Shown: positions 4,457 to 33,777 of the stretch, in pieces
Position numbering within the stretch: position 1 is the first letter of the stretch
Layout of the letters: every line of letters begins with the position of its first letter
DNA from: Comamonadaceae bacterium
GTDB lineage: Bacteria; Pseudomonadota; Gammaproteobacteria; Burkholderiales; Burkholderiaceae_C
Direction: 5' to 3'
DNA: 33,777 nucleotides
NCBI GenBank assembly: GCA_025352965.1
Contig: JANXRP010000128.1
Span: 1-33,777, forward strand
The notes under the pieces: generated by a model
Told to the model about the DNA's origin: nothing
Seen by the model: the letters and a program-made list of their open reading frames with translations, nothing else
Databases searched by the model: none
Position numbers and translations under genes: made by a program

Positions 4457-4480
4457 ATCGTGTTTTGATGGTTTGAGTTT

Positions 4481-5335
4481 TTATTTGAGCGGCAGTCCAT
4501 TTGCCCGCCCTTTGGTAGGCCGCAGTGGGTCTGGCCCTGCGGGCGGTTTGGGCTGAGGAGCCACGATGGGCGGGGCTTGCACAGGAGGTGGCGGTGGCTT
4601 GAGCGCCGCGTACATCTGCGTGACCGTCTTCACGTAGTTTTGCGTCTCGGGATAGTTGGGGATTTTGTTGCCCGCTTTTTGCACCGCGCCTTCGCCCGCG
4701 TTGTAGGCGGCCAGCGCCAAGTCGAGCTGACCTTTAAAGAGCGTCAGCAGATCGCGCAGATAGTGTGAGCCCGCATGGATATTGGTATACGGATCGAATA
4801 ACTTTTGCTGTTGCGATGTGCGTCTGTCACCCTGTACGCCGTATCTGGCGGCGGTTTCAGGGATGAGCTGCATGAGTCCCAGCGCACCTTTGGGCGAAAT
4901 GGCGGTGACATTAAAGCCAGACTCGGCGGCAATCAAAGCTTGCAACAATTCGACATCAAGCAGGTATTTGTGCGCAGCGGCTTGCATGTGCGGCTTGATA
5001 TTTTTGAGGACTTGTGATGACTCAAAAAACGCCGCAAGCTTAGGGGAAAGCGGGGAAATAGAGGGGGGAGCAGGCGAACAATTGAGATTAGCGCCAAACA
5101 ATTGGGGTCGGGTGCAGGTAGCCGCTGGCGACGATTCGTCACCTGAGCCCAATTGGCTTGGCGCGGGTTCTGGCGAAATCTCTTTTGAGAACAACTCATA
5201 CCGAGCGTCTTCTTTAGTTGCCGAAAAATGCCCCACACCCTTGTCGTCGATAAAGCCCCAAATTTCGGCGTGAGCTGCGCACACCCCTAGCCAAAGAGCA
5301 AAACACGCGGCGAAAAGCTTAAACATCAATCTCAA
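4481..5335 (-). CDS. Periplasmic lytic transglycosylase (SLT domain)
   Basis: Cleaves the MurNAc-GlcNAc bond of peptidoglycan, forming 1,6-anhydro-MurNAc ends. The 284 residues start with a signal peptide (about 1-23, cut after AAHA). A short DUF4124-like segment (EIWGFIDDKGVGHFS) follows, then a low-complexity linker, then the SLT domain (about 115-235). Seen there: the catalytic glutamate in AAESGFN (Glu138), GALGLMQLIPETA, and LALAAYNAGEGAV. The C-terminal 40 residues are proline-rich. It overlaps the end of parE by 17 nt and precedes parC by 24 nt, so it is built into the topoisomerase IV operon; I infer this reflects shared transcription rather than a known shared process. Confidence 0.9.
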   Translation of the reverse strand: MRLMFKLFAACFALWLGVCAAHAEIWGFIDDKGVGHFSATKEDARYELFSKEISPEPAPSQLGSGDESSPAATCTRPQLFGANLNCSPAPPSISPLSPKLAAFFESSQVLKNIKPHMQAAAHKYLLDVELLQALIAAESGFNVTAISPKGALGLMQLIPETAARYGVQGDRRTSQQQKLFDPYTNIHAGSHYLRDLLTLFKGQLDLALAAYNAGEGAVQKAGNKIPNYPETQNYVKTVTQMYAALKPPPPPVQAPPIVAPQPKPPAGPDPLRPTKGRANGLPLK

Positions 5336-7319
5336 TCCCGTCGCCGTGAATCTCCATCAGCTCGCGCCTAGATGCCGCTTCGCCCTTGCCCATCAGCTTG
5401 GTCATTTGCACATGCGTTTGCGCTAAATCCAATGCGCTCCATTTCACGGGCAGCAATCGCCGCGTGTCGGGGTTGAGCGTGGTGTCCCACAGTTGCTCGG
5501 CGTTCATTTCACCCAAACCTTTGAAGCGGCTAATCTGGCAGCGCTCACGAGCGACACCATCCTTGGCGGCCTTATCCAGCAAGGCTTGCAGCTCGCCGTC
5601 GTCTAGCGCGTAGAGTTTGCTGGCGGGTTTTTTGCCGCGTGCTGGCACGTCTAGCCTAAACAGCGGCGGACGGGCGATGTAGATGTGACCTGTCTCAATT
5701 AGTTTGGGAAAGTGCTTGAGGAATAGCGTGAGCAAGAGCACCTGAATGTGCGAGCCGTCCACGTCCGCGTCCGACAAGATGCAAATCTTGCCGTAGCGCA
5801 GACCGCTAAGGTCAGGGCTATCGTTTTCGCCATGTGGATCAACGCCAATGGCGACCGAAATGTCGTGAATTTCGTTATTGGCAAAGAGGCGGTCGCGCTC
5901 CACTTCCCAAGTGTTGAGCACCTTGCCGCGCAGGGGCAGCACGGCTTGTGACTCCTTATCGCGCCCCATTTTTGCGGAGCCGCCCGCAGAGTCTCCCTCG
6001 ACTAAAAACACCTCGTTGTGTGTGATGTCGCGGCTTTCGCAGTCGGTTAGTTTGCCAGGCAGCACAGCTACACCCGAGCCTTTGCGCTTTTCCACTTTTT
6101 GTCCTGCGCGTTGACGGGCTTGGGCTGCAGAAATCGCTAGCTCGGCGAGTTTTTTACCCCAATCGACGTGCGAGTTGAGCCATAACTCTAAGCTGGGGCG
6201 CACGTAGTTGGAAACCAATTTGAGCGCATCGCGCGAGTTCAGGCGCTCTTTAATTTGCCCTTGGAATTGCGGATCGAGCACCTTGGCAGAGAGCACATAA
6301 CTGGCGCGGGCGAATACGTCCTCACTCAGTAGCTTCACGCCCTTGGGCAGGAGCGCGTGCATCTCGATAAAGCTTTTGACCGCTTGAAACAGACCATCGC
6401 GCAGCCCGCTTTCGTGTGTGCCGCCAGCGGTGGTCGGGATGAGATTGACGTAGCTCTCGCGCATCACAGCGCCGTCCGCTGTAAATGCCACCGCCCACGC
6501 CGCACCCTCACCTTCGGCAAAGCCCGTGTCTTCGACTTCTTTGCCCGCTTTGGTAAATTGCTCGCCTTCAAATAGCGGAATCACAGGATCAGCCGCCAAG
6601 CTTTGCGTGAGGTAGTCGGTAAGGCCGCCCTTGTATTGCCATATGGTGGTTTGCTCTGCTTTGTCTTTTGCTTTTTCGTTCACCAGCGTGACGATCACGC
6701 CTGACATCAGTACCGCTTTGGAGCGCAGCAAGTGCGTGAGCTCGGACAGCGGAAAGTGAGGTGAATCGAAATACTTGGCGTCAGGCCACACGCGCACAAC
6801 CGTACCTTGCTTCTTGTCGCCTGCCTGCAAAGCGTGCTGGGTAAGGGGTTCAATCACATCGCCTGCCGCAAACACCAAGCGTGCGACTTTGCCATCGCGG
6901 TGCGATGAAACTTCTAGCCGTGTGGCCAGTGCATTGGTTACGCTCACGCCCACACCGTGCAGGCCGCCTGCAAAGCTGTACGCGCCGCCCGAGCCTTTGT
7001 CGAACTTGCCGCCCGCATGCAATTGGGTAAACACAATTTGCATCACGGGCAGACCTTCGCCCTCGTGAATACCGTGTGGGATGCCGCGCCCGTCGTCTTC
7101 CACGCTCACCGAGCCGTCCGTGTGCAAGGTCAAAGTGATGCGCTTGCCAAAGCCCGCCAGCGCTTCGTCGGCAGCGTTGTCCAGTACTTCTTGGATCATG
7201 TGTAGCGGGTGGTCAGTGCGCGTGTACATGCCAGGGCGCTGCTTGACGGGCTCTAAGCCTTTTAAGACGCGGATGGAGTCTTCGGAGTAATCTTTTGTGG
7301 TGTTTGCTGGTTTTGCCAT
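5319..7319 (-). CDS. parE: DNA topoisomerase IV subunit B
   Basis: ATPase subunit of topoisomerase IV. From ATG 7319 the protein has 666 residues. The GHKL ATPase domain carries EVLDNAADEA, DDGRGIP and GGLHGVGVSVTNALA. The transducer follows, and the TOPRIM domain shows LVEGDSAGGSAKMGRD and ILSDADVDGSHI. FKGLGEMNAEQLWDTTL marks the C-terminal end. A TTG three codons upstream (7328) is in frame, but ATG 7319 is preferred because MAK leads directly into the conserved KDYSEDSIRVLKGLEPV. No Shine-Dalgarno is present; an AATAAT hexamer lies 8 nt upstream on this strand (7333-7328), fitting a leaderless or near-leaderless start. Only 16 nt separate it from the divergent glycosyltransferase gene. 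Confidence 0.96.
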   Translation of the reverse strand: MAKPANTTKDYSEDSIRVLKGLEPVKQRPGMYTRTDHPLHMIQEVLDNAADEALAGFGKRITLTLHTDGSVSVEDDGRGIPHGIHEGEGLPVMQIVFTQLHAGGKFDKGSGGAYSFAGGLHGVGVSVTNALATRLEVSSHRDGKVARLVFAAGDVIEPLTQHALQAGDKKQGTVVRVWPDAKYFDSPHFPLSELTHLLRSKAVLMSGVIVTLVNEKAKDKAEQTTIWQYKGGLTDYLTQSLAADPVIPLFEGEQFTKAGKEVEDTGFAEGEGAAWAVAFTADGAVMRESYVNLIPTTAGGTHESGLRDGLFQAVKSFIEMHALLPKGVKLLSEDVFARASYVLSAKVLDPQFQGQIKERLNSRDALKLVSNYVRPSLELWLNSHVDWGKKLAELAISAAQARQRAGQKVEKRKGSGVAVLPGKLTDCESRDITHNEVFLVEGDSAGGSAKMGRDKESQAVLPLRGKVLNTWEVERDRLFANNEIHDISVAIGVDPHGENDSPDLSGLRYGKICILSDADVDGSHIQVLLLTLFLKHFPKLIETGHIYIARPPLFRLDVPARGKKPASKLYALDDGELQALLDKAAKDGVARERCQISRFKGLGEMNAEQLWDTTLNPDTRRLLPVKWSALDLAQTHVQMTKLMGKGEAASRRELMEIHGDGIEIDV

Positions 7320-7323
7320 AAGC

Positions 7324-7333
7324 GACAATTATT
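7324..7333. promoter_or_regulatory. Overlapping divergent -10 boxes, parE / GT41 gene
   Basis: On the plus strand GACAAT (7324-7329, 4/6 match to TATAAT) ends 6 nt before ATG 7336. On the minus strand AATAAT (7333-7328, 5/6 match) ends 8 nt before parE ATG 7319. Neither gene has a Shine-Dalgarno. With a start site about 7 nt past the hexamer, both messages would begin at or very near the start codon. Convincing -35 boxes are not visible, so this is an inference from spacing. Confidence 0.45.
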
Positions 7334-7335
7334 TC

Positions 7336-9027
7336 ATGATTGACCGCGAAGCCACCGTAGCCGCTCTTTTATTAAATTACGACCACAACCCTCAGGAGGG
7401 GCTGCTGGTGTATCGCCGCGCGATCGCGTCGGGTTTGCGCGGCATTGCTAACAATCCCGATGTACATGTCAATCTGGCGCTGTACCTGATGGCACTTGGC
7501 GAGTCGGTAGAAGCCGAGGCGACGTTTCGCAAAGCGCTGGATCTTGCACCTGCGCACATCGCTAGCCTCTACAACTTGGGTTATTTGCTCTATACGCAGC
7601 ATCGCGCATCAGAGGCGGCGTCTATTTTTCGGCAAGTGTTGGCGTTAGATCCCGCGCACGTGAATGCGATGATTAATTTAGCGAATAGTCTGCAAAGCCT
7701 TATGCAGCGTGACTTAGCGCAGGGGCTGATGCGACAAGCTCAGTTACTTGCGCCCGATAACTATTTGCCAGCTTCTTTTGAGTTGTTTGAATCGACTTAT
7801 GACACCAGCAGCACCGATGCCACGATTTTTACGAAAGCCAAACACGCGGCCGATTTGCGCTGCGCGGGTTTTCAAACGCCCATACAAATGCAGATAAAAA
7901 AGCCTTGGTATCAAGGTGAGCGCCCACTGCAAGTTGGGTTTGTCTCGGGTGATTTCAAAATGCATCCTGTGGGGTTTTTCTTGCAAGACTGGTTGCCCTT
8001 TGTGGATAAAAGCCGTTTAACGCTACATGCGTTTTCAATGCTGGAGGTGGATGACGCGGTTGCACAAAAGCTACGGGCACAATTTGCCACGTGGCAGTCG
8101 GTCGCGCGAATGGGCGACGAGGAAGTGCAGGCACTTACGGCAAAGCTGGGCATCGATTTGCTGATTGATCTGTCGGGGCATACCGATATGAATCGCTTGC
8201 CGCTCTTTGCCTGCCGCGCCGCGCCCGTGCAAATATCGTGGCTTGGCTGGTACGCCACGACGGGCGTGGCCAATATGGATTATTTCTTGACCGACCGCAT
8301 TAGCAGCCCAGAGTCGTCCGCCGCACACCATTCTGAGCGCTTGCTTTATTTGCCAACTACGCGGCTGTGTCTGTGTGAGCCGATTTTTGCGCCCCCAGTC
8401 AGTCCGCTACCCGCATTGCAAAACAAGCGTATTACTTTTGGCTCGCTGCAATCTTTGCTCAAAATTACCGATGCCACGCTCCATTTGTGGCGGCGGGTGC
8501 TGGAGCGAACGCCAAGTGCGCACTTGCACATCCGCTGTACACAGCTTGGACAAGCTGAGATGGTGGCGCTGTTTGAGCAGCGGCTGAGGGACTTTGAGTT
8601 GCCGCTTGCGCGAATTGAGCTTTTATCGCCAGTTTCCTATGCGGCGTACCTTGAAAGTTATCAAAGCATCGATTTGATGTTGGACACGATTCCGTTCTCT
8701 GGCGGTACCACCACTGCCGAGGCACTCTGGATGGGCGTGCCCACGCTGACTTTGCTTGGGAACACGCTGATTGCGCGGCAAGGCGCTAGTTTGATGTCTA
8801 CAGCAGGGCTTGCGGATTGGGTTGCGGACTCGGAGGAGGACTACGTGGCTAAGGCGCTGTATTGGAGCGGGCATTTGGATGAGCTGGCTGAGCTTCGGGC
8901 AGGCCTTCGAGAAGCGGTGCGTGCCAGCCCTTTGTTTGATAGTCCGCGTTTTGCCCGCGCTTTTACCGAGGCTATCGAGTCAGCGTACAATGCAAACCTT
9001 CTTTTACAACCCTTGAGGGATATATGA
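7336..9027 (+). CDS. TPR protein with GT41 (O-GlcNAc transferase/SPINDLY-like) domain
   Basis: Predicted cytoplasmic protein glycosyltransferase. The 563 residues begin with about three TPRs (residues 35-150), ending in the consensus [18 protein letters not shown]. The C-terminal GT41 catalytic domain (about 195-550) shows [11 protein letters not shown] (201-211, His210 in the position of the OGT active-site His), [11 protein letters not shown] (His282), [19 protein letters not shown] (Lys376) and [18 protein letters not shown] (450-467), the nucleotide-sugar site. Family members transfer GlcNAc or other sugars to Ser/Thr of proteins; the target here is unknown. ATG 7336 is preferred over an in-frame GTG at 7297, which would run through the parE start. 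The stop overlaps the acpP start in ATGA (9024-9027), so the two are probably translationally coupled. Confidence 0.88.
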
Positions 9028-14035: not shown

Positions 14036-14944
14036 ATGAACACTTCTCCTGCTCGCAAAACTCATCTTGACGCTTTGGCTATCGGCTTGCTACTCATTTG
14101 CTGCGTCTTTTGGGGTTGGCAGCAAGCGCTGGTGAAGGCCACGCTGCCAATGATTCCGCCTGTGCTGCAAGTGGGTGTACGCTTTGCGCTAGGGACGCTG
14201 GTGCTGATGTTGTGGTGCCGCTATCGTCCCGGTGCGGGTAAGGTTGATTTATGGAGCGCTGACGGCACGCTAGGCGCAGGATTGTTGGTGGGCGGTTTAT
14301 TTGCGCTGGAGTTTGTTTGCTTGTATGTGGGGCTGGTGCATACCAGCGCGTCAAGACTCACTCTCTTTTTGTACACCTCGCCGTTTATCGTTGCCTTGGT
14401 GTTGCCGCGCTTTATTCCTAGCGAGCGTTTAAAGCCTTTGCAGTGGGTGGGTTTGGCCTGTGCTTTTGTCGCCGTGATGCTGGCGATGATGGATAAGCTG
14501 GATGGCGGATCGATGCTGGGCGATTTGCTGGCGTTGGCGGCAGGATTGTTTTGGGGTTTGACGACGGTGGCCATCCGTAGCACCAGTCTTGCGCGGGTGA
14601 GTGCTGAAAAATTATTGTTTTATCAATTGATCATTAGTGCTGCTTTGCTGTTGCCGCTATCCCTCTTGATGGGTGAAAACTGGAGCGCCACACTGGCTGG
14701 CATGACGGGTTTTGCTTGGGGCTCGCTTGCCATCCAAGTGTTTGTGGGAGCGTTTGCGAGTTATCTCACGTGGATGTGGATGCTGGGGCGTTATCCAGCG
14801 ACCAAGCTTTCGTCGTTTGTGTTTTTAACACCTGTGTTTGCACTGGTGTTTGCTGCCGCTTGGCTGGGCGAGCCGATCACGGCCAAGCTTGTGACAGCGC
14901 TGGTGCTGGTGGGCGTAGGCATTGTGCTGGTCAATCGCAAATGA
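14036..14944 (+). CDS. EamA/DMT superfamily transporter
   Basis: Inner-membrane permease of the drug/metabolite transporter superfamily, with about ten hydrophobic segments in 302 residues arranged as two EamA repeats (about 15-145 and 160-300). Characteristic fragments are FWGWQQALVKATLP, YVGLVHTSASRLTLFLYTSPF (end of repeat one) and SYLTWMWMLGRYPATKLSSFVFLTPVFALVFAAAWLGEP (repeat two; the last part is the usual signature). Members export amino acids, nucleosides or drugs; the substrate cannot be read from sequence. ATG 14036 is the only start that keeps helix one. The stop overlaps the next gene's start in ATGA (14941-14944), implying coupled expression. Confidence 0.88.
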   Translation: MNTSPARKTHLDALAIGLLLICCVFWGWQQALVKATLPMIPPVLQVGVRFALGTLVLMLWCRYRPGAGKVDLWSADGTLGAGLLVGGLFALEFVCLYVGLVHTSASRLTLFLYTSPFIVALVLPRFIPSERLKPLQWVGLACAFVAVMLAMMDKLDGGSMLGDLLALAAGLFWGLTTVAIRSTSLARVSAEKLLFYQLIISAALLLPLSLLMGENWSATLAGMTGFAWGSLAIQVFVGAFASYLTWMWMLGRYPATKLSSFVFLTPVFALVFAAAWLGEPITAKLVTALVLVGVGIVLVNRK

Positions 14945-16617
14945 ATCTCACGATCGCGCAACCTACAAATTTCGATCGGCTCATTGAGCTTTCAGCCCAG
15001 CAGTATCACGCGGGTCAGCCAGAGCTGACGCTGGCGACGTGTCAGCAAATTCTTACGCAGGATATCCATCACGTGATGGCTTGGAGCAACGCCTCGGCGG
15101 CGCTAGCAGCGCTGGGGCGCTGGGTAGACGCATTGGCGTATGTGCGGCAAGCCTTGGCGTTAGAGCCACACAGGTTAGATGCACTCAATAATGGCGCGCA
15201 GATTTTGCTCGCACTGGGTCGTTTGGATGAGGCTTGTGCGCTTTTTCGCAATCTGGGTTGGACGCAGCACCAAGCCAAAGAGCGAGCTGCAGCGATGGCG
15301 AGTTATGAGCGGGCACTATCGATGAATCCTAACGACGTCGAGTCCTTGCATGTGTTGGCGGGGCTGCACAGCGAGGGCAAAGAGGTGACGCAGGCTTTGG
15401 TTTTGATGAACCGTGGGTTGGCGATTAACCCACTGCACTTAACGACCTTAGCCGCCAAGGGTAACTTGCTGGGAGGCCAATCAGGACAAGGCTTAGAGGC
15501 CGAGACCTGCTTTAAAACAGCACTATCGGTAGACCCGAATCATTGGATGACGCTGTACAACTACGGCGTTTATTTGGCGAGTATGCGGCGCTATGCCGAA
15601 GCGATTGAGATGTACGAGCGAGCGGGCCGTGCGGATCCGAATCATCACTTGTCGTTTTGGAATTTGTCGAACTTGCTGCTGCGGCTGGGTGACTATCCGA
15701 GGGCCTGGCCGATGTACGAGTGGCGCTGGAAAACGGATCACTTAAAGCCCGCTTATTTGCAATTACCGATGCCGCTTTGGACGGGGCAGGACTTGAAGGG
15801 CAAGCGTATTTTGTTGCATTTTGAACAAGGCTACGGCGATGCGTTTCAGTTCATTCGCCTCGCCAAAGATGTGGCTGCACGAGGAGCGCATGTCACCATC
15901 TTTATGCCACGCGAGATTTGCGAAAACTTTGTCGGCGCTGACGGCGTGCATGAGATTCGTCCGTGGAACGACATTCCGCAAGGGTTTGACTATCACGCGC
16001 CCTTGATGTCGCTGCCTGCGCCGCTGGGATTGACGATTCACAACATCCCAAGCGCCACGCCTTATCTATTCGCTAGTCCACAGCGCATCAGGCTTTGGCA
16101 AGAGCGACTGCCAAAACTGGATAAGCGCAAAAAGCAAAAATTAAGAGTCGGTTTGACTTGGTGCGGTCGCCCGACGCATGACAACGACCGTAATCGCTCG
16201 CTTGCGTTTGCCGAGCTGCTACCGCTGATTGACGCTTTCCCACAGATAGAGTTTGTCTCGGTGCAAGTTGGGCCGCGAGAGTCTGATTTGGCAGACTTAG
16301 CCGCGTGTCAGCAGATGGTGCGTGCCGAGTCTGCGATTCAAGATTTTTCAGATACAGCCGCGCTGGTCATGCAGCTTGATTTGCTGATTAGTGTGGACAC
16401 GGCAGTCGTGCATTTGGCGGGCGCTTTGGGTAAACCTGTGTGGGCTTTGATTGCGGCATCCTCCGACTGGCGCTGGCTAGAGGAGCGCGAAGATACGCCG
16501 TGGTATCCCAATGTGCGGCTTTTTCGTCAAACGGATGCGGACGGTAAAACATGGAACTGGATGCCCGTATTGGCACGCATCCAGCTAGAGCTTCAAAAAT
16601 TACTTCTTGGCGAGTAA
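14941..16617 (+). CDS. TPR protein with GT9-like glycosyltransferase domain
   Basis: The 558-residue protein begins with about six TPRs (residues 15-270), e.g. CFKTALSVDPNHWMTLYNYGVYL. The linker motif WPMYEWRWKTD follows, then a C-terminal GT-B domain resembling heptosyltransferases (about 300-555): HFEQGYGDAFQFIRLAK near its start, RVGLTWCGRPTHDNDRNRS, and SVDTAVVHLAGALGKPVWAL, the nucleotide-sugar side. It ends in the shared W-x-W-L-x-x-R-x-D-(T/S)-PWYP block. Predicted role is sugar transfer, acceptor unknown. ATG 14941 overlaps the EamA stop by 4 nt; an open frame extends upstream to 14716 but only inside EamA and has no TPR character. Its tail overlaps yidB, on the opposite strand, by 18 nt. 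Confidence 0.82.
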   Translation: MNLTIAQPTNFDRLIELSAQQYHAGQPELTLATCQQILTQDIHHVMAWSNASAALAALGRWVDALAYVRQALALEPHRLDALNNGAQILLALGRLDEACALFRNLGWTQHQAKERAAAMASYERALSMNPNDVESLHVLAGLHSEGKEVTQALVLMNRGLAINPLHLTTLAAKGNLLGGQSGQGLEAETCFKTALSVDPNHWMTLYNYGVYLASMRRYAEAIEMYERAGRADPNHHLSFWNLSNLLLRLGDYPRAWPMYEWRWKTDHLKPAYLQLPMPLWTGQDLKGKRILLHFEQGYGDAFQFIRLAKDVAARGAHVTIFMPREICENFVGADGVHEIRPWNDIPQGFDYHAPLMSLPAPLGLTIHNIPSATPYLFASPQRIRLWQERLPKLDKRKKQKLRVGLTWCGRPTHDNDRNRSLAFAELLPLIDAFPQIEFVSVQVGPRESDLADLAACQQMVRAESAIQDFSDTAALVMQLDLLISVDTAVVHLAGALGKPVWALIAASSDWRWLEEREDTPWYPNVRLFRQTDADGKTWNWMPVLARIQLELQKLLLGE

Positions 16618-26418: not shown

Positions 26419-27981
26419 ATGAATAAGTTGCTCACACCTAACGATTATCTAAAGAAAATCCTTGCCGCTCGCGTCTACGACGTAGCCAAGGAAACAGCGC
26501 TCGATTACGCCAAAAATTTGAGCGCGCGCATTGGACACACGGTGCTGCTCAAGCGTGAAGACCAGCAACCCGTGTTTAGTTTCAAGCTACGCGGTGCGTA
26601 CAACAAGATGGTGCAGCTAAATGCTGCACAGCTCAAAAAAGGTGTGATTTGCGCGTCGGCGGGCAATCATGCGCAGGGCGTGGCGCTAGGCGCAAAAACG
26701 CTGGGAACGCGCGCCATCATCGTGATGCCAACGACCACACCGTCGGTCAAGGTTGATGCGGTGCGGGCGCTGGGCGGTGATGTGGTGTTGTTTGGCGAGA
26801 GTTATTCGGATGCCTCCTTGCACGCGCAAAAGCTACAGGCGCAAAAAGGTTTAACGTTTATTCATCCATTTGATGACCCTGATGTGATTGCGGGTCAAGG
26901 CACGATTGGCCTTGAAATTCTTCGCCAAATGCAAAGCGCACCATCCAAAAAATTAGATGCCGTTTTTGTAGCGATTGGTGGTGGGGGTTTGATTTCGGGA
27001 GTAGCCAACTGCATCAAAGCGATCGACCCCAGCATCCGCGTAATTGGTGTGCAAATGAACGACTCCGACGCGATGATGCAATCGGTGCAATCAGGCAAGC
27101 GCGTGACGCTTGCCGATGTGGGTTTGTTCTCCGATGGTACGGCCGTCAAGTTGGTGGGCGAGGAAACCTTCCGTGTGGCTAGCAGCGGTTTGGTGGATGA
27201 ATTTATGACGGTGGATACCGACGCTGTTTGCGCGGCGATCAAGGATATCTACGTGGATACGCGCTCGATCGTCGAGCCCGCTGGAGCGCTGGCCGTTGCT
27301 GCGATTAAGCAATATGTTGAAAGAAGAAAAACAGCTCGAAAAACCACAAAACCAGAAACCTACGCCGCGATTTTGTGCGGCGCGAATATGAACTTTGATC
27401 GCTTGCGCTTTGTCGCCGAACGCGCTGATGTGGGCGAGCACAAAGAGGCGGTCTTTGCTGTCACTGTCCCCGAAGAGCGGGGTAGCTTTAAACGGTTTTG
27501 CACGCTGGTCGGTGCGGGGCGGAGCATTACTGAATTTAATTACCGCATGTCGGACGCAAAAGTCGCCCATGTGTTTGTAGGTTTATCAACTAGCACGGCA
27601 GACGAATCGAAAAAAATCGCCAAAGCCTTATCCACTGAGGGCTTCAAGGCGATTGACCTCACGCATGACGAACTGGCAAAGGAGCATATTCGCTACATGG
27701 TGGGCGGCGCATCTAGCTTGGCGGTGAATGAGCGTGTTTTGCGTTTCACTTTCCCTGAGCGCCCAGGCGCCTTGCTGAAATTTTTAAGCGCGATGCAGCC
27801 TAGTTGGAATATCAGCTTGTTCCATTACCGCAATCAAGGCGCGGATTACGGACGGATTTTGGTCGGCATTCAAGTGCCTAAAAAAGAATCGAAGGCGTTT
27901 GACGCTTTCCTCAAAAACTTAGGCTACCCCTTTGTTGAAGAAACCGACAACCCCGCGTATCGGCTTTTTTTACAAAGTTAA
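26419..27981 (+). CDS. ilvA: Threonine ammonia-lyase, biosynthetic
   Basis: PLP enzyme that deaminates threonine to 2-oxobutanoate, first step of isoleucine synthesis. The 520 residues match the long biosynthetic form. Lys56 in FSFKLRGAYNKM binds PLP; the glycine loop IGGGGLISGVANC and SAGNHAQGVALGAK are clear. Two C-terminal ACT-like regulatory repeats (about 335-515: FAVTVPEERGSFKRFC and RFTFPERPGALLKFL) predict feedback control by isoleucine. ATG 26419 is preferred over TTG 26410, which lies in the putative -10 box. The stop overlaps the gspC stop by 4 nt. Confidence 0.95.
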   Translation: MNKLLTPNDYLKKILAARVYDVAKETALDYAKNLSARIGHTVLLKREDQQPVFSFKLRGAYNKMVQLNAAQLKKGVICASAGNHAQGVALGAKTLGTRAIIVMPTTTPSVKVDAVRALGGDVVLFGESYSDASLHAQKLQAQKGLTFIHPFDDPDVIAGQGTIGLEILRQMQSAPSKKLDAVFVAIGGGGLISGVANCIKAIDPSIRVIGVQMNDSDAMMQSVQSGKRVTLADVGLFSDGTAVKLVGEETFRVASSGLVDEFMTVDTDAVCAAIKDIYVDTRSIVEPAGALAVAAIKQYVERRKTARKTTKPETYAAILCGANMNFDRLRFVAERADVGEHKEAVFAVTVPEERGSFKRFCTLVGAGRSITEFNYRMSDAKVAHVFVGLSTSTADESKKIAKALSTEGFKAIDLTHDELAKEHIRYMVGGASSLAVNERVLRFTFPERPGALLKFLSAMQPSWNISLFHYRNQGADYGRILVGIQVPKKESKAFDAFLKNLGYPFVEETDNPAYRLFLQS

Positions 27982-28430
27982 TTTTTGCTCGGTAACTCTA
28001 GCGTAAAGGCGGTTGCACCATTGGTTCCGATGGATGCGCTGCGAGCCGCAACGGCTGTGACTTCCAAGCCCTCCTCAATGGCAGAGCCCACGGAATAAGG
28101 CTTGGCGGGCTTGCCATCGACAGATATCAGTGCCGCACCGCGCGTCGCTCCGACAGCCAATACGCCTTGCAATTGAAGGCGTGCTTGCAGCGCCGATAGA
28201 GCACCTGCTGCAGTGGGTGCAACTGGATTTTTTGCGCCAAGTGCAACAGCAACTCTCGGTGTGAGGCTTGGCTCTTGTGCCTCGCCCGCCCGTGCAGCAG
28301 TTAAAGCGGCAGATGGGGTCGGCGCGTCCATGCTTTGCAAAATCCAAAACGCAGCACTGCCAGCAGCTAAAGCCCAGAGCAAAAAAGTGGTGAGACGAAC
28401 CGTCCAAAATGGAAGCAAGGAAGAAGGCAT
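27978..28430 (-). CDS. gspC: Type II secretion protein GspC (homology-region domain only)
   Basis: Inner-membrane component that links the type II secretion platform to the secretin. The 150 residues have a short cytoplasmic start, a transmembrane helix (about 12-31, TTFLLWALAAGSAAFWIL), an Ala/Pro-rich linker, and the periplasmic HR domain (about 80-125: LQLQGVLAV, AALISVDGKPAKPYSVGSAI). The C-terminal PDZ or coiled-coil of some GspC proteins is absent. A gspC divergent from gspG is the arrangement known in Burkholderia-type clusters, which supports the call. The next gene in its direction is ilvA, not gspD/E/F. No Shine-Dalgarno; GATAAT lies 6 nt before the ATG. Confidence 0.8.
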   Translation of the reverse strand: MPSSLLPFWTVRLTTFLLWALAAGSAAFWILQSMDAPTPSAALTAARAGEAQEPSLTPRVAVALGAKNPVAPTAAGALSALQARLQLQGVLAVGATRGAALISVDGKPAKPYSVGSAIEEGLEVTAVAARSASIGTNGATAFTLELPSKN

Positions 28431-28450: not shown

Positions 28451-28873
28451 ATGAAAAACTTAAATACAGAGCGCGGCTTTACCTTAATCGAGCTGATGGT
28501 GGTGCTGGTCATTATTGGTATCTTGGCGGTGCTGATTGTCCCAAACGTGCTGGATCGTGCGGACGATGCGCGAGTGACGGCCGCTAAAACCGACATCGCC
28601 AATCTCACGCAGGCCTTGAAGCTGTACAAGTTAGATAACCAGCGTTATCCGGGCGCAGAGCAAGGTTTGCTGGCGCTAGTGGCAAAACCAACCGCTGGAC
28701 AAATTCCCGTGACGTGGCGTCCCTATATCGATAAACTGCCGCAAGACCCGTGGGGCAAGCCTTATCAGTATTTAAACCCAGGTATCAAGGGCGAAATTGA
28801 CGTGATGTCTTTTGGCGCAGACGGCGTGCCTGGCGGTGAGGGTAAAAACGCGGATATAGGATCTTGGCAATAA
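28451..28873 (+). CDS. gspG: Type II secretion major pseudopilin GspG
   Basis: Main subunit of the periplasmic pseudopilus. The 140 residues start with a short prepilin leader cut after Gly9 (NTERG|FTLIELMVV), Glu at +5 of the mature protein, and a hydrophobic assembly helix. The globular part has the GspG signature RYPGAEQGLLALV, DPWGKPYQYLNPG, and the calcium loop DVMSFGADGVPGGEGKNADIGSW. Maturation needs the GspO/PilD peptidase, not encoded here. First gene of gspGHIJK. Confidence 0.96.
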   Translation: MKNLNTERGFTLIELMVVLVIIGILAVLIVPNVLDRADDARVTAAKTDIANLTQALKLYKLDNQRYPGAEQGLLALVAKPTAGQIPVTWRPYIDKLPQDPWGKPYQYLNPGIKGEIDVMSFGADGVPGGEGKNADIGSWQ

Positions 28874-28878
28874 GGAGC

Positions 28879-29313
28879 GTGGCCATCAACAAAGTTCGCG
28901 GCTTCACGCTTTTAGAGCTGCTCGTGGTCATCGCCGTGATTGCACTGGGTACAGCGGGCGTGACTTTGGCGATGCGGGATGCGGGGCAAACCAGCTTAGA
29001 GCGCGAGGCGCTTCGGCTCTCGGCCTTGCTGGATGCGGCTCGCAGTCAATCACGGGCTTCTGGCGTGATGGTGACTTGGGAAGCGGTGCAAGATGATTCC
29101 GCGTTGCCCGTCATGCGCTGGCGCGGTCTGCGCAGCAAAGAGCCGCTACCAACGCAGTGGCTAGACGCGCAAACTCGTGTCATCGCAAGAGCCCCACTGG
29201 TGCTTGGCCCCGATCCCGTGATAGCGCCGCAGCGTGTTCGCTTGACTCTTGATACAGAACACCGCGATGTGGTGACCGATGGTGTGGGTGCGTTTCGGGT
29301 GGAGGTCAAGTGA
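28879..29313 (+). CDS. gspH: Type II secretion minor pseudopilin GspH
   Basis: From GTG 28879 the protein has 144 residues: leader MAINKVRG|FTLLELLVVIAVIALGTA, with Glu at +5, and a GspH-type C-terminal domain with VRLTLDTEHRD near its end. It begins 5 nt after the gspG stop. AAGGAG is only 1 nt from the GTG, unusually close; an in-frame TTG at 28864, overlapping gspG, is an alternative but also has poor spacing. No ATG is available before the prepilin motif. Confidence 0.85.
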   Translation: MAINKVRGFTLLELLVVIAVIALGTAGVTLAMRDAGQTSLEREALRLSALLDAARSQSRASGVMVTWEAVQDDSALPVMRWRGLRSKEPLPTQWLDAQTRVIARAPLVLGPDPVIAPQRVRLTLDTEHRDVVTDGVGAFRVEVK

Positions 29314-29684
29314 GACGCACGCGCGGCTTCACGCTTGTCGAGGTGCTGGTCGCGCTGGCGATTGTCGCTATTGCGCTGGGCGCTGGATTGCGCGTGAGCG
29401 GTTCGCAAATCAATCATGCCCAGCGCCAAGGCGATATGTTCCGTGCGCAACTCTGCGCTGAGAACGAGCTCATCAAGCTGCGCCTAACAAGGCAACTGCC
29501 CGACACGGGGGATAAGAGTTTTAGTTGCGAGCAAGCGGGGATTGTTTTAGAAGGCAAGCTGCATGTGGAGGCCACGCCCAACCCAAGTTTTCGCAAAGTT
29601 GATGCACTGGTTTATCAAGCCGCAGGCGATGACAGGCAAGCTTATACGTTGGTGAAGCTCTCAACCCTCGTGGGGCGGTTTTGA
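29310..29684 (+). CDS. gspI: Type II secretion minor pseudopilin GspI
   Basis: The 124-residue minor pseudopilin forms the pseudopilus tip with GspJ and GspK. Leader MRRTRG|FTLVEVLVALAIVAIALGAGLR, with Glu at +5; FRAQLCAENELIKLRL fits the GspI globular start. GTG 29310 overlaps the gspH stop by 4 nt, with GGAGG 4 nt before it, so it is translationally coupled. Confidence 0.9.
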   Translation: MRRTRGFTLVEVLVALAIVAIALGAGLRVSGSQINHAQRQGDMFRAQLCAENELIKLRLTRQLPDTGDKSFSCEQAGIVLEGKLHVEATPNPSFRKVDALVYQAAGDDRQAYTLVKLSTLVGRF

Positions 29685-30355
29685 TGCATCCATCTCGTTT
29701 ATCACGGACGCACGGCTTTACTTTGATCGAAGTGCTGGTGGCGCTGGTGCTGGTCAGCCTGCTCTCGCTCATGGCGTGGCGCGCCTTGGAGGGCATGGGG
29801 CAAGCAGGTGAACTCACTCGGGTCAACGAACAAAGCTTGCAGCGCATTCAGGTGGGGCTGGCGCAGTGGACAGTAGACCTAGACGCGATAGCGGATACAG
29901 GCCTCGCTCAGCCCTTGGATTTTGATGGTCAGCGGCTACGCCTCACGCGTCATAGCAGCGAGCCAAACGCAGGTATCGTGGTCGTGGCGTGGTTGCTGCG
30001 TAGTACCGAACAAGGACGCGTGTGGCAGCGCTGGGCATCGCCGCCTGTCACCACACGAATCGGCCTGCAAGCCGCATGGGATGGGGCTGAGCGCTGGAGT
30101 CGCACGCCGCTCTCGGAGGACGCGGCACGTACCGTGACGTTCATGCCTGTCAGTAGCTGGCAGCTGTTTTATTACCGAGGCGATGCGTGGAGCAATCCAC
30201 AGTCCTCCGCAGGCGGGCCAGGCGCGGACGCCTCCACGAAGTTACCTGATAGTGTGCAGTTGATTTTGGATGTGCCCGCTGGCGCTAGCGATGGATCAAT
30301 AGCTGGCAAGCTGACGCGCTACTGGATTGCACCTCGGCAAGGAGCGACGCGGTGA
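29684..30355 (+). CDS. gspJ: Type II secretion minor pseudopilin GspJ
   Basis: The 223-residue minor pseudopilin has leader MHPSRLSRTHG|FTLIEVLVALVLVSLL, with Glu at +5, then WRALEGMGQAGELTRVNEQSLQRIQ, as in GspJ. The size, larger than GspH and GspI, fits. The ATG shares one base with the gspI stop (TGATG at 29682-29686). A Ser/Gly/Pro-rich stretch near residue 175 (SSAGGPGADAST) may be a surface loop. Confidence 0.9.
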   Translation: MHPSRLSRTHGFTLIEVLVALVLVSLLSLMAWRALEGMGQAGELTRVNEQSLQRIQVGLAQWTVDLDAIADTGLAQPLDFDGQRLRLTRHSSEPNAGIVVVAWLLRSTEQGRVWQRWASPPVTTRIGLQAAWDGAERWSRTPLSEDAARTVTFMPVSSWQLFYYRGDAWSNPQSSAGGPGADASTKLPDSVQLILDVPAGASDGSIAGKLTRYWIAPRQGATR

Positions 30356-31281
30356 AGGCGCTTGTGCATCGTCGCTCTAAGCAAAGCGGTGCTGCCATTT
30401 TGGTAGCGATGCTAGTCGTCACCTTGGTCGCTACGCTGGCCGCAGGACTCCAGTGGCGGCAGTGGCGCATGCTCCAGCAAGAAGCGGCGGCGCGCGCGCA
30501 AAGCCAAGCGGGCTGGGTCTTGGTGGGGGCGCTCGATTGGGCGCGGCTGATTTTGCGCGAAGACGCGCGCTCAGCGGGCAATATTGGCATCATCGACCAC
30601 TTGGGCGAGCCGTGGGCGCTGCCCTTGCAGGAGGCCAAGCTAGCATCGTTTTTGACGGCCGATAGCCTATCGGATCCTAGCCAAGATGCGGCTTATCTAT
30701 CGGGCTATCTCATGGATGCGCAAAGCAAAATCAATCTCACCAACTTGGTATCCAGCCAAACGGGCGAAGCCGTGCTGTCAACCAGTACTTACCAAAGTTT
30801 GACGCGGCTCTATCAGCAACTTAATCTTCCGATTGCAGAGCTTAAAAACTGGACCGAACGCTGGCAAGCCAAATCGGACGGGGCTTTGCGGCCTATGCGT
30901 ATCGAGCAGCTCACGTGGCTAGGTGTGCCAGCCAGCAGCGTCCAAGTGCTTAAAAATCACCTGACCATCTTGCCAAACCGAACGCCTATTAATCTCAATA
31001 CAGCAAGCGCCATGGTGGTTTTTGCTGCGGTGCCAGGCATTGATATGGGCGCTGCGCAAAAGCTGGTGGCGGGGCGTGCGCAGTCGCCGCTGCAAAAACT
31101 ATCGGAAGCCAGCAACATGATGGGTCTTGGCACGAACTTATTGGAGACCGACTTCAGCATTTACAGCCAGTACTTTGAAGTGCGTGGTCGTTTGCGCTTA
31201 GGCGATTGGATCGTGATTGAAGAGTCGCTGGTGCAGCGCGAAGGTTTGAACGTCACCACGGTGTGGCGCAGGCGACTATGA
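30352..31281 (+). CDS. gspK: Type II secretion minor pseudopilin GspK
   Basis: Largest minor pseudopilin (309 residues), predicted to cap the tip. The prepilin segment QSG|AAILVAMLVVTLVATLAAGL lacks Glu at +5, as is normal for GspK. The insert domain (DAQSKINLTNLV, YQSLTRLYQQLN) and the helix-hairpin-like segment LPNRTPINLNTASAMVVFAAVPGIDMGAAQKLV are typical. GTG 30352 overlaps the gspJ stop by 4 nt, with AAGGAG 7 nt before it. gspL would be expected next; a TPR-glycosyltransferase overlaps its stop instead. Confidence 0.92.
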   Translation: MKALVHRRSKQSGAAILVAMLVVTLVATLAAGLQWRQWRMLQQEAAARAQSQAGWVLVGALDWARLILREDARSAGNIGIIDHLGEPWALPLQEAKLASFLTADSLSDPSQDAAYLSGYLMDAQSKINLTNLVSSQTGEAVLSTSTYQSLTRLYQQLNLPIAELKNWTERWQAKSDGALRPMRIEQLTWLGVPASSVQVLKNHLTILPNRTPINLNTASAMVVFAAVPGIDMGAAQKLVAGRAQSPLQKLSEASNMMGLGTNLLETDFSIYSQYFEVRGRLRLGDWIVIEESLVQREGLNVTTVWRRRL

Positions 31282-32621
31282 CGATGAGTGATGTGGCGAC
31301 TCTTTTCCATCAAGGCTATGCGCTCTACACCCAAGGGCGCGAGGACGAGGCGCTGAGTTGTTTTGATGCGGTTATTGCCGCAGCGCCAGACTACTGGCAA
31401 GCGCGCAATAACCGTGCTGATTTGCTGCAAAATGCCGAGCGCTACGAAGACGCATTGATCGATGCCGACTATCTGTTAAAGCTAGAGGCTGCAAATGCAG
31501 GCATGAATGCGGGCACATGGGCCATGCGCGGCCGCATCATGCTTAGGCTAAATCGATTTGCCGATGCGCTCGCCAGTTATGCGCGTGTTCGAGAGCTAGA
31601 CCCTCGTTATCCGCTCGATGTGTTTGAAGAAGCGCTTTGCAGACTTGCGCTTGGCGACTATGCGGCGGGATGGTCACTACACGAGGCGCGCTGGCGTACC
31701 GACTCGATGCAGGCGGCGGCGACGCAGTTAGAGCAGCGTGGGTATGCCCAACCGATGTGGCTGGGGCAAGAGTCGCTTTTAGGAAAAACTATTTTTTTAT
31801 GGCCCGAGCAAGGTTATGGCGATACGCTACAGTTTTGCCGTTATGTCCATGTGGTGCAGCAAAGGGGCGCCAAAGTGATTTTGGCAAGCAACCGACCGAT
31901 GATGCAGTTGCTAAAAAATGCTTTTACGCATCCCGATATTGAGGTCGTGCTTGATTTGGTTAGCAGCCCCTACGCCTTTGATTTTCATTGCCCTTTGATG
32001 AGTTTGCCGTTGGCTTGTGGCACCGACAACTTGGACAAAATTCCTAGCCAAATTCCTTATCTCTTTGCGGATGCACAAAGCAGGCAACAATGGCAAGCTG
32101 CCTTGCAGACCATGCCACATAAGGGCTTGCGCATAGGGCTTTTGTGGGCGGGCGGGCCAAGACCCAACCAACCCACGCTGCAAAGCATTGATGCGGCACG
32201 TTCTTTAAGGCTTGAGCAATTCGCACCTTTGTTCGATTTGGCGCAAACTAGCCCCGCGCAATTTTTTAGTTTACAGCTTGGCGAGCCTGCCAAGCAATTG
32301 CAAGAGCAGCAAGGACTCCCCATCATTGACCTCACGGCAGATCTGACGGATTGGGCCGATACAGCGGCGCTTGTTGCTAACCTTGACCTCGTCATCACTT
32401 GCGATACGGCGGTTGCACACCTTGCCGCCGCGATGGGCAAACCGACTTGGGTGCTGTCTCGGTTTAATGGCTGCTGGCGCTGGTTGACTGACCGAGACGA
32501 TAGTCCGTGGTATCCCGCCGTGCGGCTCTTTCGGCAAACCACGCGTGGCGACTGGACTGGCGTGATGAGCGCGGTGGTGATTGCGTTGCAAGCAAAATTA
32601 AACGAGGCGACGCATGAGTGA
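31278..32621 (+). CDS. TPR protein with GT9-like glycosyltransferase domain
   Basis: The 447 residues have about three TPRs (residues 8-115; EDEALSCFDAVIAAAPDYWQARNNRADLL), the hinge GDYAAGWSLHEARWRTD, and a GT-B domain (about 165-445): LWPEQGYGDTLQFCRYVH, RIGLLWAGGPRPNQ, TCDTAVAHLAAAMGKPTWVL, and WRWLTDRDDSPWYPAVRLFRQ. ATG 31278 overlaps the gspK stop by 4 nt (ATGA); ATG 31284 is the alternative. It is thus locked into the pseudopilin operon. Closely related to the next gene (shared CGTD-x-LDKIP block), suggesting a tandem duplication. Acceptor unknown. Confidence 0.82.
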   Translation: MTMSDVATLFHQGYALYTQGREDEALSCFDAVIAAAPDYWQARNNRADLLQNAERYEDALIDADYLLKLEAANAGMNAGTWAMRGRIMLRLNRFADALASYARVRELDPRYPLDVFEEALCRLALGDYAAGWSLHEARWRTDSMQAAATQLEQRGYAQPMWLGQESLLGKTIFLWPEQGYGDTLQFCRYVHVVQQRGAKVILASNRPMMQLLKNAFTHPDIEVVLDLVSSPYAFDFHCPLMSLPLACGTDNLDKIPSQIPYLFADAQSRQQWQAALQTMPHKGLRIGLLWAGGPRPNQPTLQSIDAARSLRLEQFAPLFDLAQTSPAQFFSLQLGEPAKQLQEQQGLPIIDLTADLTDWADTAALVANLDLVITCDTAVAHLAAAMGKPTWVLSRFNGCWRWLTDRDDSPWYPAVRLFRQTTRGDWTGVMSAVVIALQAKLNEATHE

Positions 32622-33777
32622 GCCGCTGCAACTTTTTACGGATGCCATCGCTTTGCAAAACGCAAGGCGGTTTGAAGAAGCGGTTGAAAAATACGACGCG
32701 TTTTTACGAGGCTATGTTGGTAACGCGCAAATGCATACCAACCGTGGCCTGGCGCTGTTTGAACTGGGGCGCATAGGCGAGGCAATTGCGGCTTACCGCG
32801 AAGCCGTGCTCTGTGATGCGGGTTACTTTGATGCGCACTACAGCATGGGGCTGGCGCTGTTTGTTGAGCGTCGCTACCTTGATGCACTCATGAGTTTTGA
32901 TTCTGCAATAGCGATTGCGCCAAGTGTGGATGCGCATGTTTCGCGCGGATCCACGCGCCTGGAACTAGGGCAATACGACGCAGCGTTGGTTGACTATGAC
33001 GCCGCCTTGCGCATCCATCCAAACTTTGCCAAAGCCCATATGAATAAAGGCTCGGCGCTGTATGAAATGGAACGGCTAGGCGAAGCCCAAGCTTGCTACG
33101 AGCAAGCGCTCTTGCTTCATCCAAACGATCACAGCGTGGAGTGGAACGAAGCGCTATGTCTTTTGCGCGCGGGTCACTTACTGCGTGGCTGGCAGCGTTA
33201 CGAGCGGCGCTTAGAAGGCAGTCTTTCCCAGCCGCTTCGACGCGCCGACTATGGCAAACCCCGTTTTTTGGAAGCGGCGACGGCGCAGAGTTTGTCTGGC
33301 AAAACCATTTTGCTTTGGCCCGAGCAAGGGCATGGTGATGTGATTCAGTTTTGTCGCTATGCGTCAGAGTTAGAGAGATTGGGTGCAAGGGTCATCCTGG
33401 AGGTTTATCCGCCCTTGCTGCGTTTGATGGAGGCAGCATTTGCAAACACGGGCATTCGTGTGGCGTTGGATGGAACCGTCAGCCCCTCCGAGTTTGATTT
33501 CCATCTGCCGCTTTTGAGCTTGCCGCTTATTTGCGGCACGGACAGCTTGGACAAAATTCCAGCGACCACGCCCTATCTTTTTGCTGTGCCACAGGAGGTG
33601 CAAGCGTGGCAAGAGCGCATGGTTCATAAGGGCTTGCGCGTCGGTTTGGTGTGGGCTGGCGGCCACCGCCCCCATCAACCGATTGATGCCAAGGTGGACG
33701 CGGCTCGCTCGCTGCGTCTTGAAGCGTTTGCGCCGCTACTTGCGCTGTCGCACACGATGGACGTGCAATTCTTTAGC
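32614..33777 (+). CDS. TPR protein with GT9-like glycosyltransferase domain (3' end outside window)
   Basis: The first 388 codons are visible and open to the right edge. About five TPRs (residues 10-180), e.g. ALRIHPNFAKAHMNKGSALYEMERLGEA, are followed by HLLRGWQRYERRLEG and the glycosyltransferase start LLWPEQGHGDVIQFCRYA. Then come FDFHLPLLSLPLICGTDSLDKIP and RVGLVWAGGHRPHQ. The second half of the GT domain, with the DTA-x-x-HLA site, is beyond the window. The ATG overlaps the previous stop by 8 nt, so it is translationally coupled. Two more TPRs than its upstream paralogue. Confidence 0.8.
   Translation, partial: MSEPLQLFTDAIALQNARRFEEAVEKYDAFLRGYVGNAQMHTNRGLALFELGRIGEAIAAYREAVLCDAGYFDAHYSMGLALFVERRYLDALMSFDSAIAIAPSVDAHVSRGSTRLELGQYDAALVDYDAALRIHPNFAKAHMNKGSALYEMERLGEAQACYEQALLLHPNDHSVEWNEALCLLRAGHLLRGWQRYERRLEGSLSQPLRRADYGKPRFLEAATAQSLSGKTILLWPEQGHGDVIQFCRYASELERLGARVILEVYPPLLRLMEAAFANTGIRVALDGTVSPSEFDFHLPLLSLPLICGTDSLDKIPATTPYLFAVPQEVQAWQERMVHKGLRVGLVWAGGHRPHQPIDAKVDAARSLRLEAFAPLLALSHTMDVQFFS

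Follow-up and report, generated by a model that had tools for sequence, protein, structure and literature searches.

A tandem pair of TPR-GT9 glycosyltransferase genes between gspK and gspL of a type II secretion operon belongs to a dispersed gene family

The flagellin O-glycosyltransferase FlmG of Caulobacter binds flagellins through its tetratricopeptide repeat (TPR) part and glycosylates them, as described in parts of PMC7591256. It is the closest architecture with a known job that was found for the genes reported here. TibC provides a precedent for a GT9-fold enzyme which modifies a secreted protein, its substrates being autotransporters in the passages of PMC4358343. In the present study, a pair of TPR-containing glycosyltransferase (GT) genes was analyzed in the type II secretion system (T2SS) operon of a Comamonadaceae bacterium. 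The pair lies at the right end of a 33,777-nucleotide stretch (GenBank assembly GCA_025352965.1, contig JANXRP010000128.1, positions 1 to 33,777), referred to as the window, which is contig C32 of genome G000 (2.29 Mb, 203 contigs, 96.7% complete). The genus of the window is represented by five genomes, G000 to G004. With a probability of about 0.7, the pair belongs to a dispersed and multiplied TPR-GT9 family that was inserted once between gspK and gspL and stayed active, with no need of an acceptor specific to the T2SS.

Both genes lie on the plus strand directly after gspK (30352..31281, +). Gene 1 has two in-frame starts, 31278, which gives a 4-nt ATGA overlap with the gspK stop, and 31284, and it ends at 32621. 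Gene 2 starts at 32614, overlapping gene 1 by 8 nt, and its frame leaves the contig at 33777. The two genes are related to each other and both carry TPR repeats, N-terminal in gene 1, where a C-terminal GT-B domain of GT9/WaaF/TibC type follows. The initial annotation had described two related TPR-GT genes joined to gspGHIJK by these overlaps, and this was confirmed by the open reading frames (ORFs) and profile matches, with the 31278 start taken for gene 1 and the GT9-type domain seen in gene 1. It had also placed the pair where gspL and gspM normally sit. The apparent loss of these two genes was a misreading produced by the contig end and is corrected here. Searches with GspL and GspD of locus L020 matched another contig of G000, C58, at positions 37-807 (79% identity) and 2081-4156, respectively. 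This contig carries gspL (37-810), gspM (807-1286), gspN (1273-2076), gspD (2087-4165), gspE (4185-5579) and gspF (5593-6816), and the presence of gspL and gspM in the same genome rules out their replacement by the pair. The first 44 nt of C58 read as the tail of gene 2 and match the gene 2 end of G004 and G002, with SYNV in place of their SYNA, and the last 8 nt of this tail are common with gspL. From this tail and from the gene order of G002 and G004, C32 and C58 would join to give the order gspGHIJK-GT1-GT2-gspLMNDEF, with the pair between gspK and gspL of an otherwise complete operon, and roughly 90 codons of gene 2 would fall in the gap when G004 is taken as guide. The assembly perhaps broke inside gene 2 due to the likeness of its GT domain to many paralogs. 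Contig C115 was rejected as a candidate for carrying the rest of gene 2. Its tail precedes a convergent gene (start MKEIW) that also follows the paralog linked to exonuclease III in locus L118, where it is NtrC-like. The GspL frames of the five genus genomes are short, with 251-265 aa compared to mostly about 400-440 aa in the other gspK loci (for example L100:11114-11911 and the C58 gene at 37-810, locus L176), and GspL of G004 matches only part of PF05134. These short frames are independent of the GT insertion.

The pair was found between gspK and gspL in three of the five genus genomes (the carriers G000, G002 and G004). gspK is present in all five, and in G001 and G003 it runs straight to gspL, forming an empty site. 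Gene 1 overlaps gspK by 4 nt in two carriers, the third (G004) having a 12-nt spacer. The 8-nt overlap between the two genes is likewise present in two carriers, and in G002 the pair forms one fused frame of 901 codons. In all three carriers gene 2 overlaps gspL by 8 nt, with the gspL start codon inside the end of gene 2. An arrangement which recurs in three of five genomes with both genes under purifying selection exceeds chance. In a tree of the joined T2SS proteins and IlvA, the carriers grouped together in a single clade (100/100), joined first by G003 (96/97) and only then by G001, so one gain suffices. The leader TTCATACAAT stands before gspL at the empty site of G001 and is also found at the end of gene 2 in all three carriers, where its letters encode the last Ser-Tyr-Asn of the protein. 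At the empty site of G003 the leader is TTCATAGAAT, with 9/10 letters in common. The letters shared by the empty sites and the gene 2 end mark the 3' junction and argue that the empty site is ancestral. The insertion would have taken place in the common ancestor of G000, G002 and G004 and would have run into the old gspL leader, so that the last codons of gene 2 came to lie in spacer sequence and the gspL start inside the gene 2 end. A newly captured function, one of the readings offered by the initial annotation, fits the single insertion required by the tree.

The neighbourhood was surveyed outside the genus on the basis of 83 collected gspK loci, in which the same genome occurs twice in at least two cases (L020/L073 and L021/L075). 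Among the 76 loci from outside the genus, 73 had at least 400 nt downstream of gspK, and three were dropped as too short. None of the 73 loci had a TPR-GT in the 4 kb after gspK or, where less sequence was available, in the whole downstream part; many of them extend only about 1.45 kb past gspK. gspL was identified with a profile derived from hits in these loci. It was situated within 250 nt of gspK in 63/73 and was not recognised within this distance in 10/73, one of which had it at 888 nt. In L060, a metagenome-assembled genome labelled Bordetella, 888 nt separate gspK and gspL. The family survey identified gspK in 265 of 299 genomes (E 1e-15) and a close TPR-GT in at least 23 of the 299 (E 1e-60; at most five candidates per genome scored). 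Among the matches listed, the nearest TPR-GT and gspK outside the genus are about 11 kb apart in G057; reading of this region showed no adjacency, several other ORFs lying between them. Being absent from two of the five genus genomes and from all 73 outside loci as far as these extend, the pair is not a core T2SS component.

The family to which the pair belongs is multiplied in the genus. Gene 1 gives 11 matches in G000, namely itself, gene 2, eight others with GT sequence and one with TPR repeats only. The eight further copies all lie away from gsp, and two of them are fragments near contig ends. Across the five genus genomes the matches number 11, 7, 9, 2 and 14. One of the copies unlinked to gsp is in the window itself (14941..16617, +) and overlaps a permease-like gene (14036-14944) by 4 nt (14941/14944). 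According to profile matches on ten proteins, some of them below the model cut-off, the neighbours of the paralogs in the genus include exonuclease III, TsaD, gamma-glutamyltransferase, the permease-like gene, SerS and indolepyruvate oxidoreductase. Paralogs overlap exonuclease III by 4 nt in G001 and G004, the gamma-glutamyltransferase gene by 4 nt in G001 and tsaD by 7 nt in G000 and G003. A start of the form ATGAGTGA, ATGAGCGA or GTGAGCGA is present in 10 of the 22 listed GT frames. Each of these forms includes a stop codon of a different frame, which alone would yield 4-nt overlaps, and with ATGAGTGA also 8-nt overlaps, with an incoming gene. Since paralog overlaps are equally tight and such starts would produce them, the overlap with gspK is weak evidence for a shared job. 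Fixed co-expression with the pseudopilin genes had been proposed in the initial annotation from the overlaps. Co-expression of the pair with the T2SS operon is likely by contiguity and overlaps, above all with gspL, in three species. The initial annotation had further held that its reading would fail if the neighbourhood was unique to one genome or if the same family occurred at random places with no gsp linkage. The linkage recurs in three genomes, and the second pattern is largely the one observed, with eight further copies, unrelated neighbours and none of the 73 outside loci carrying the pair. A tree of 56 GT domains placed both gsp genes inside a genus-only group of 21 rows (98/96), gene 1 and gene 2 each forming one clade (100/99 and 100/100, respectively).

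Some paralogs show unusual domain organization. L107:7246-9261 (+) possesses an FkbM methyltransferase domain fused to TPR-GT9, is situated directly after another FkbM gene and overlaps tsaD; in G003 (L117), a gene similar to this fusion overlaps a TsaD-like gene. In G004, L104:8192-11272 (-) contains two TPR-GT9 units in one 1026-aa frame, a second tandem fusion besides the gsp pair of G002.

Relatives are also carried by many environmental phage contigs. A scan of viral contigs gave 97 relatives, of which 80 were kept. Matches covering both TPR and GT parts, starting at residue 10 or before and reaching 424 or beyond, were obtained for 52 of these, with 29-38% identity. Neighbourhoods were checked at four loci, where three of eight neighbour proteins had no match. 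In L190 and L217 no more than two genes lie from the GT to a major head protein (PHROG 371), L222 has a tail protein within about 2.5 kb of the GT, and L193 has a tail fibre or fibre-assembly match within the same distance. One GT neighbour in L217 appeared FkbM-methyltransferase-like by eye. The literature searches found nothing on phage TPR-GTs. Phages may help to spread this family, members of which are scattered over genomes and phage contigs alike. Many genus paralogs resemble the gsp genes more (44-54% for gene 1 with the closest families) than the phage relatives do, and the inserted gsp genes appear to derive from a copy inside the genus.

Gene 1 belongs to GT9 both by profile match and by a predicted GT-B fold of heptosyltransferase type. 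It matches PF01075 with 26.4 bits (cut-off 22; residues 362-395 of the longest ORF), and the gene 2 ortholog of G004 matches the same profile with 29.2 bits (cut-off 22). These matches cover only about 30-35 profile positions in the C-terminal part, and gene 2 of the window gave none as the contig ends before the matching part. The predicted model of gene 1 (mean pLDDT 93.6, pTM 0.91) is composed of a TPR solenoid from residue 1 to about 140 and a GT-B domain from about 162 to 445. Compared with solved structures, the GT part aligned to the Veillonella GT9 protein 3tov with Z 18.6, to WaaF (1psw) with 17.8, to TibC with 17.2 and to WaaC (2h1f) with 16.4, with a root mean square deviation (rmsd) of 3.0-3.3 over 237-258 residues. 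D180 of the EQGxGD motif is conserved in 43/43 aligned rows, and D374, T375 and H379 in 42/43, the other row being a gap. By motif, D180 resembles the catalytic Asp of WaaC. In TibC, Asp-110 was named as candidate base through superposition with WaaC and MurG, as stated in passages of PMC4358343. Membership in the OGT family (GT41) was rejected by profile, as Glyco_transf_41 (PF13844) gave no match in genes 1 and 2 at E 0.001. Foldseek ranked OGT and SPY first for gene 1, with TM of 0.24-0.31 and rmsd of about 14-24. VIA-align gave full-length OGT chains a Z of about 16-17 with rmsd of 13-17, and small rmsd was obtained only on the TPR repeats alone. The window does contain a TPR gene with a GT41 (OGT-like) domain by profile at 7297-9027 (+), which is divergent from a gene that appeared topoisomerase-like by eye.

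The fold shared with the lipopolysaccharide (LPS) heptosyltransferases WaaC and WaaF hints that the products may be transferases of a surface sugar, acting on LPS, capsule or another envelope glycan, with the place in the T2SS operon serving expression only. The ADP-heptose epimerase HldD was over cut-off in 5/5 genus genomes, which makes ADP-heptose a possible donor, and a family with up to 14 matches per genome, varying in number between species, is also in line with such a role. It has to be reconciled with the TPR repeats, which usually serve protein contact, and with the paralogs, which in neighbourhoods judged by eye with ten proteins checked are mostly single beside housekeeping genes and not in sugar clusters. 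A surface-sugar function is thereby a possibility to be held with considerable doubt; it forms a special case of the single insertion of a dispersed family with the acceptor named, and the odds of the two overlap.

Selection was estimated by the NG86 method in the three carriers, gene 2 of G000 being incomplete. The dN/dS values were 0.10, 0.13 and 0.09 for gene 1, 0.23, 0.19 and 0.16 for gene 2, and 0.07-0.11 for gspK. Both genes are under purifying selection. Among carriers the identity is 75-77% for gene 1, 65-71% for gene 2 and 80-91% for gspK, so the pair evolves faster than gspK. From these values genes 1 and 2 look like working genes. A largely neutral insertion would persist if a stop or frameshift in the pair was polar on gspL-F, as the gspL start inside the gene 2 end in all carriers would allow. 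Polarity would preserve the frame and not the amino acids, whereas the motifs are intact here and dN/dS lies well under 1, making this explanation very improbable. Between G000 and G002, dS is 1.2 for gene 1 and 0.7 for the adjacent gspK (NG86), a difference that local recombination or conversion among paralogs might explain.

The same selection, with the operon place and coupling in three species, also speaks for a dedicated glycosylation of the T2SS. Here pseudopilins, GspD or an exported enzyme would dock on the TPR part and receive a sugar from the GT before export, in the manner of FlmG with flagellin and TibC with autotransporters. The TPR plus GT-B architecture resembles FlmG and the fold is close to TibC, both acting on exported proteins, and in gene 1 the TPR part (77-81% among carriers) is no less conserved than the GT part. 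This explanation has to face that two genus members have T2SS genes without the pair, that none of the 73 gspK loci surveyed outside the genus carries it, and that the same family adjoins unrelated genes. A Ser/Thr signature was looked for in the Gsp proteins of carriers and none was found, their Ser+Thr content being not raised. In gene 2, the TPR array is shorter in the fused G002 frame and shares only 44-54% identity with those of G000 and G004; the same comparison gives 73-78% for the N-terminal half of the GT domain. Glycosylation of pseudopilins or of the secretome, suggested in the initial annotation, is possible and not supported by the paralogs elsewhere, the outside survey or the Ser+Thr content, and a dedicated role of this kind is unlikely. 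A T2SS with a built-in cytoplasmic glycosylation module, in which a pair coupled to gspK and gspL modifies pseudopilins, secretin or substrates in one clade, is slightly less probable still. If it was true, the phage relatives near head-protein genes would suggest that TPR-GT9 enzymes more generally modify the assembly whose genes lie beside their own. Titles and abstract starts in the literature searches showed no recognisable report on T2SS pseudopilin glycosylation by such an enzyme, and modification of T2SS proteins by the pair would represent cytoplasmic glycosylation tied to type II secretion in a form which these searches did not show.

Several observations weigh against the single insertion of an active, dispersed family without a T2SS-specific acceptor. 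The pair has persisted at one spot in three species and is coupled to both neighbours, which, like the conservation of the TPR part in gene 1, might reflect a T2SS-related role. Many pairs have a dS above 1, where synonymous changes approach saturation. Genes 1 and 2 are weak sisters (87/43) in the GT-domain tree with the bootstrap unsettled, so a tandem duplication is not proven. G003 lacks the entire paralog group, and loss there is conceivable, though the tree needs one gain.

The single insertion remains the preferred explanation, and its steps after arrival would be as follows. The tandem pair may have arisen by duplication and was fused into one frame in G002. The products are predicted to be active GT-B transferases in the cytoplasm. 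An acceptor would be presented by their TPR solenoid and would receive a sugar through the GT9-type domain, which bears the conserved GD and DTxxxH motifs; ADP-heptose is a candidate for the nucleotide donor. The pair is now probably expressed with the T2SS, and its acceptor is probably not specific to this system. The locus shows exactly where a TPR-GT9 pair was inserted into a conserved secretion operon, both empty sites and junction being visible. As a case of operon insertion its interest stays modest as long as no acceptor in the T2SS is demonstrated.

The remaining gsp genes of the window lie upstream of the pair. At the right end of the contig, gspC (27978..28430, -, PF11356 match) is divergent from gspG and is followed by gspG to gspK (28451-31281) and the two TPR-repeat ORFs. 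gspG, encoding the major pseudopilin (28451..28873, +), and gspI (29310..29684, +) were assigned by profile matches. gspH (28864..29313, +) and gspJ (29681..30355, +) were assigned by position along with matches to TIGR01708 and TIGR01711, respectively, both below their cut-offs. The T2SS operon of G001 and G002 holds a second insertion, an ORF of about 1450 aa between gspE and gspF (L101:1670-6049, -, and L102:1071-5417, -), which is found in none of G000, G003 and G004; the G002 copy is an Eco57I-type DNA methylase by Pfam (PF07669).

Comparison with the known systems shows both likeness and difference. FlmG, compared here by architecture, has an N-terminal TPR part and a C-terminal GT-B domain like gene 1. 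It differs in its flagellin acceptor, which is absent in the genus: flagellin (PF00669) was matched in 0/5 genus genomes and in 4/14 named control genomes, Caulobacter vibrioides included, which rules out flagellin glycosylation by the pair. A NeuB-family enzyme was found in only one of the five genomes, leaving the other four without this enzyme for a donor of FlmG type. TibC/AAH was compared by fold alone, with rmsd of 3.2 over 257 residues for TibC at the Z given above. Passages of PMC4358343 ascribe to TibC a beta-hairpin thumb, an iron-finger motif and a dodecamer, and these passages mention no TPR array. WaaC and WaaF share the GT-B fold and a DT-x-x-x-H type motif with gene 1; their solved chains align only to the GT part and not to the TPR part, and beyond the motif the sequences show next to no similarity (best profile E-value 0.66). 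The transferases of bacteria and phages with PF01075 plus TPR have the same domain order, the same motifs and full-length similarity to the gsp pair. The pair differs from these other TPR-GT9 enzymes in its location inside a T2SS operon and in its organization as a coupled or fused pair.

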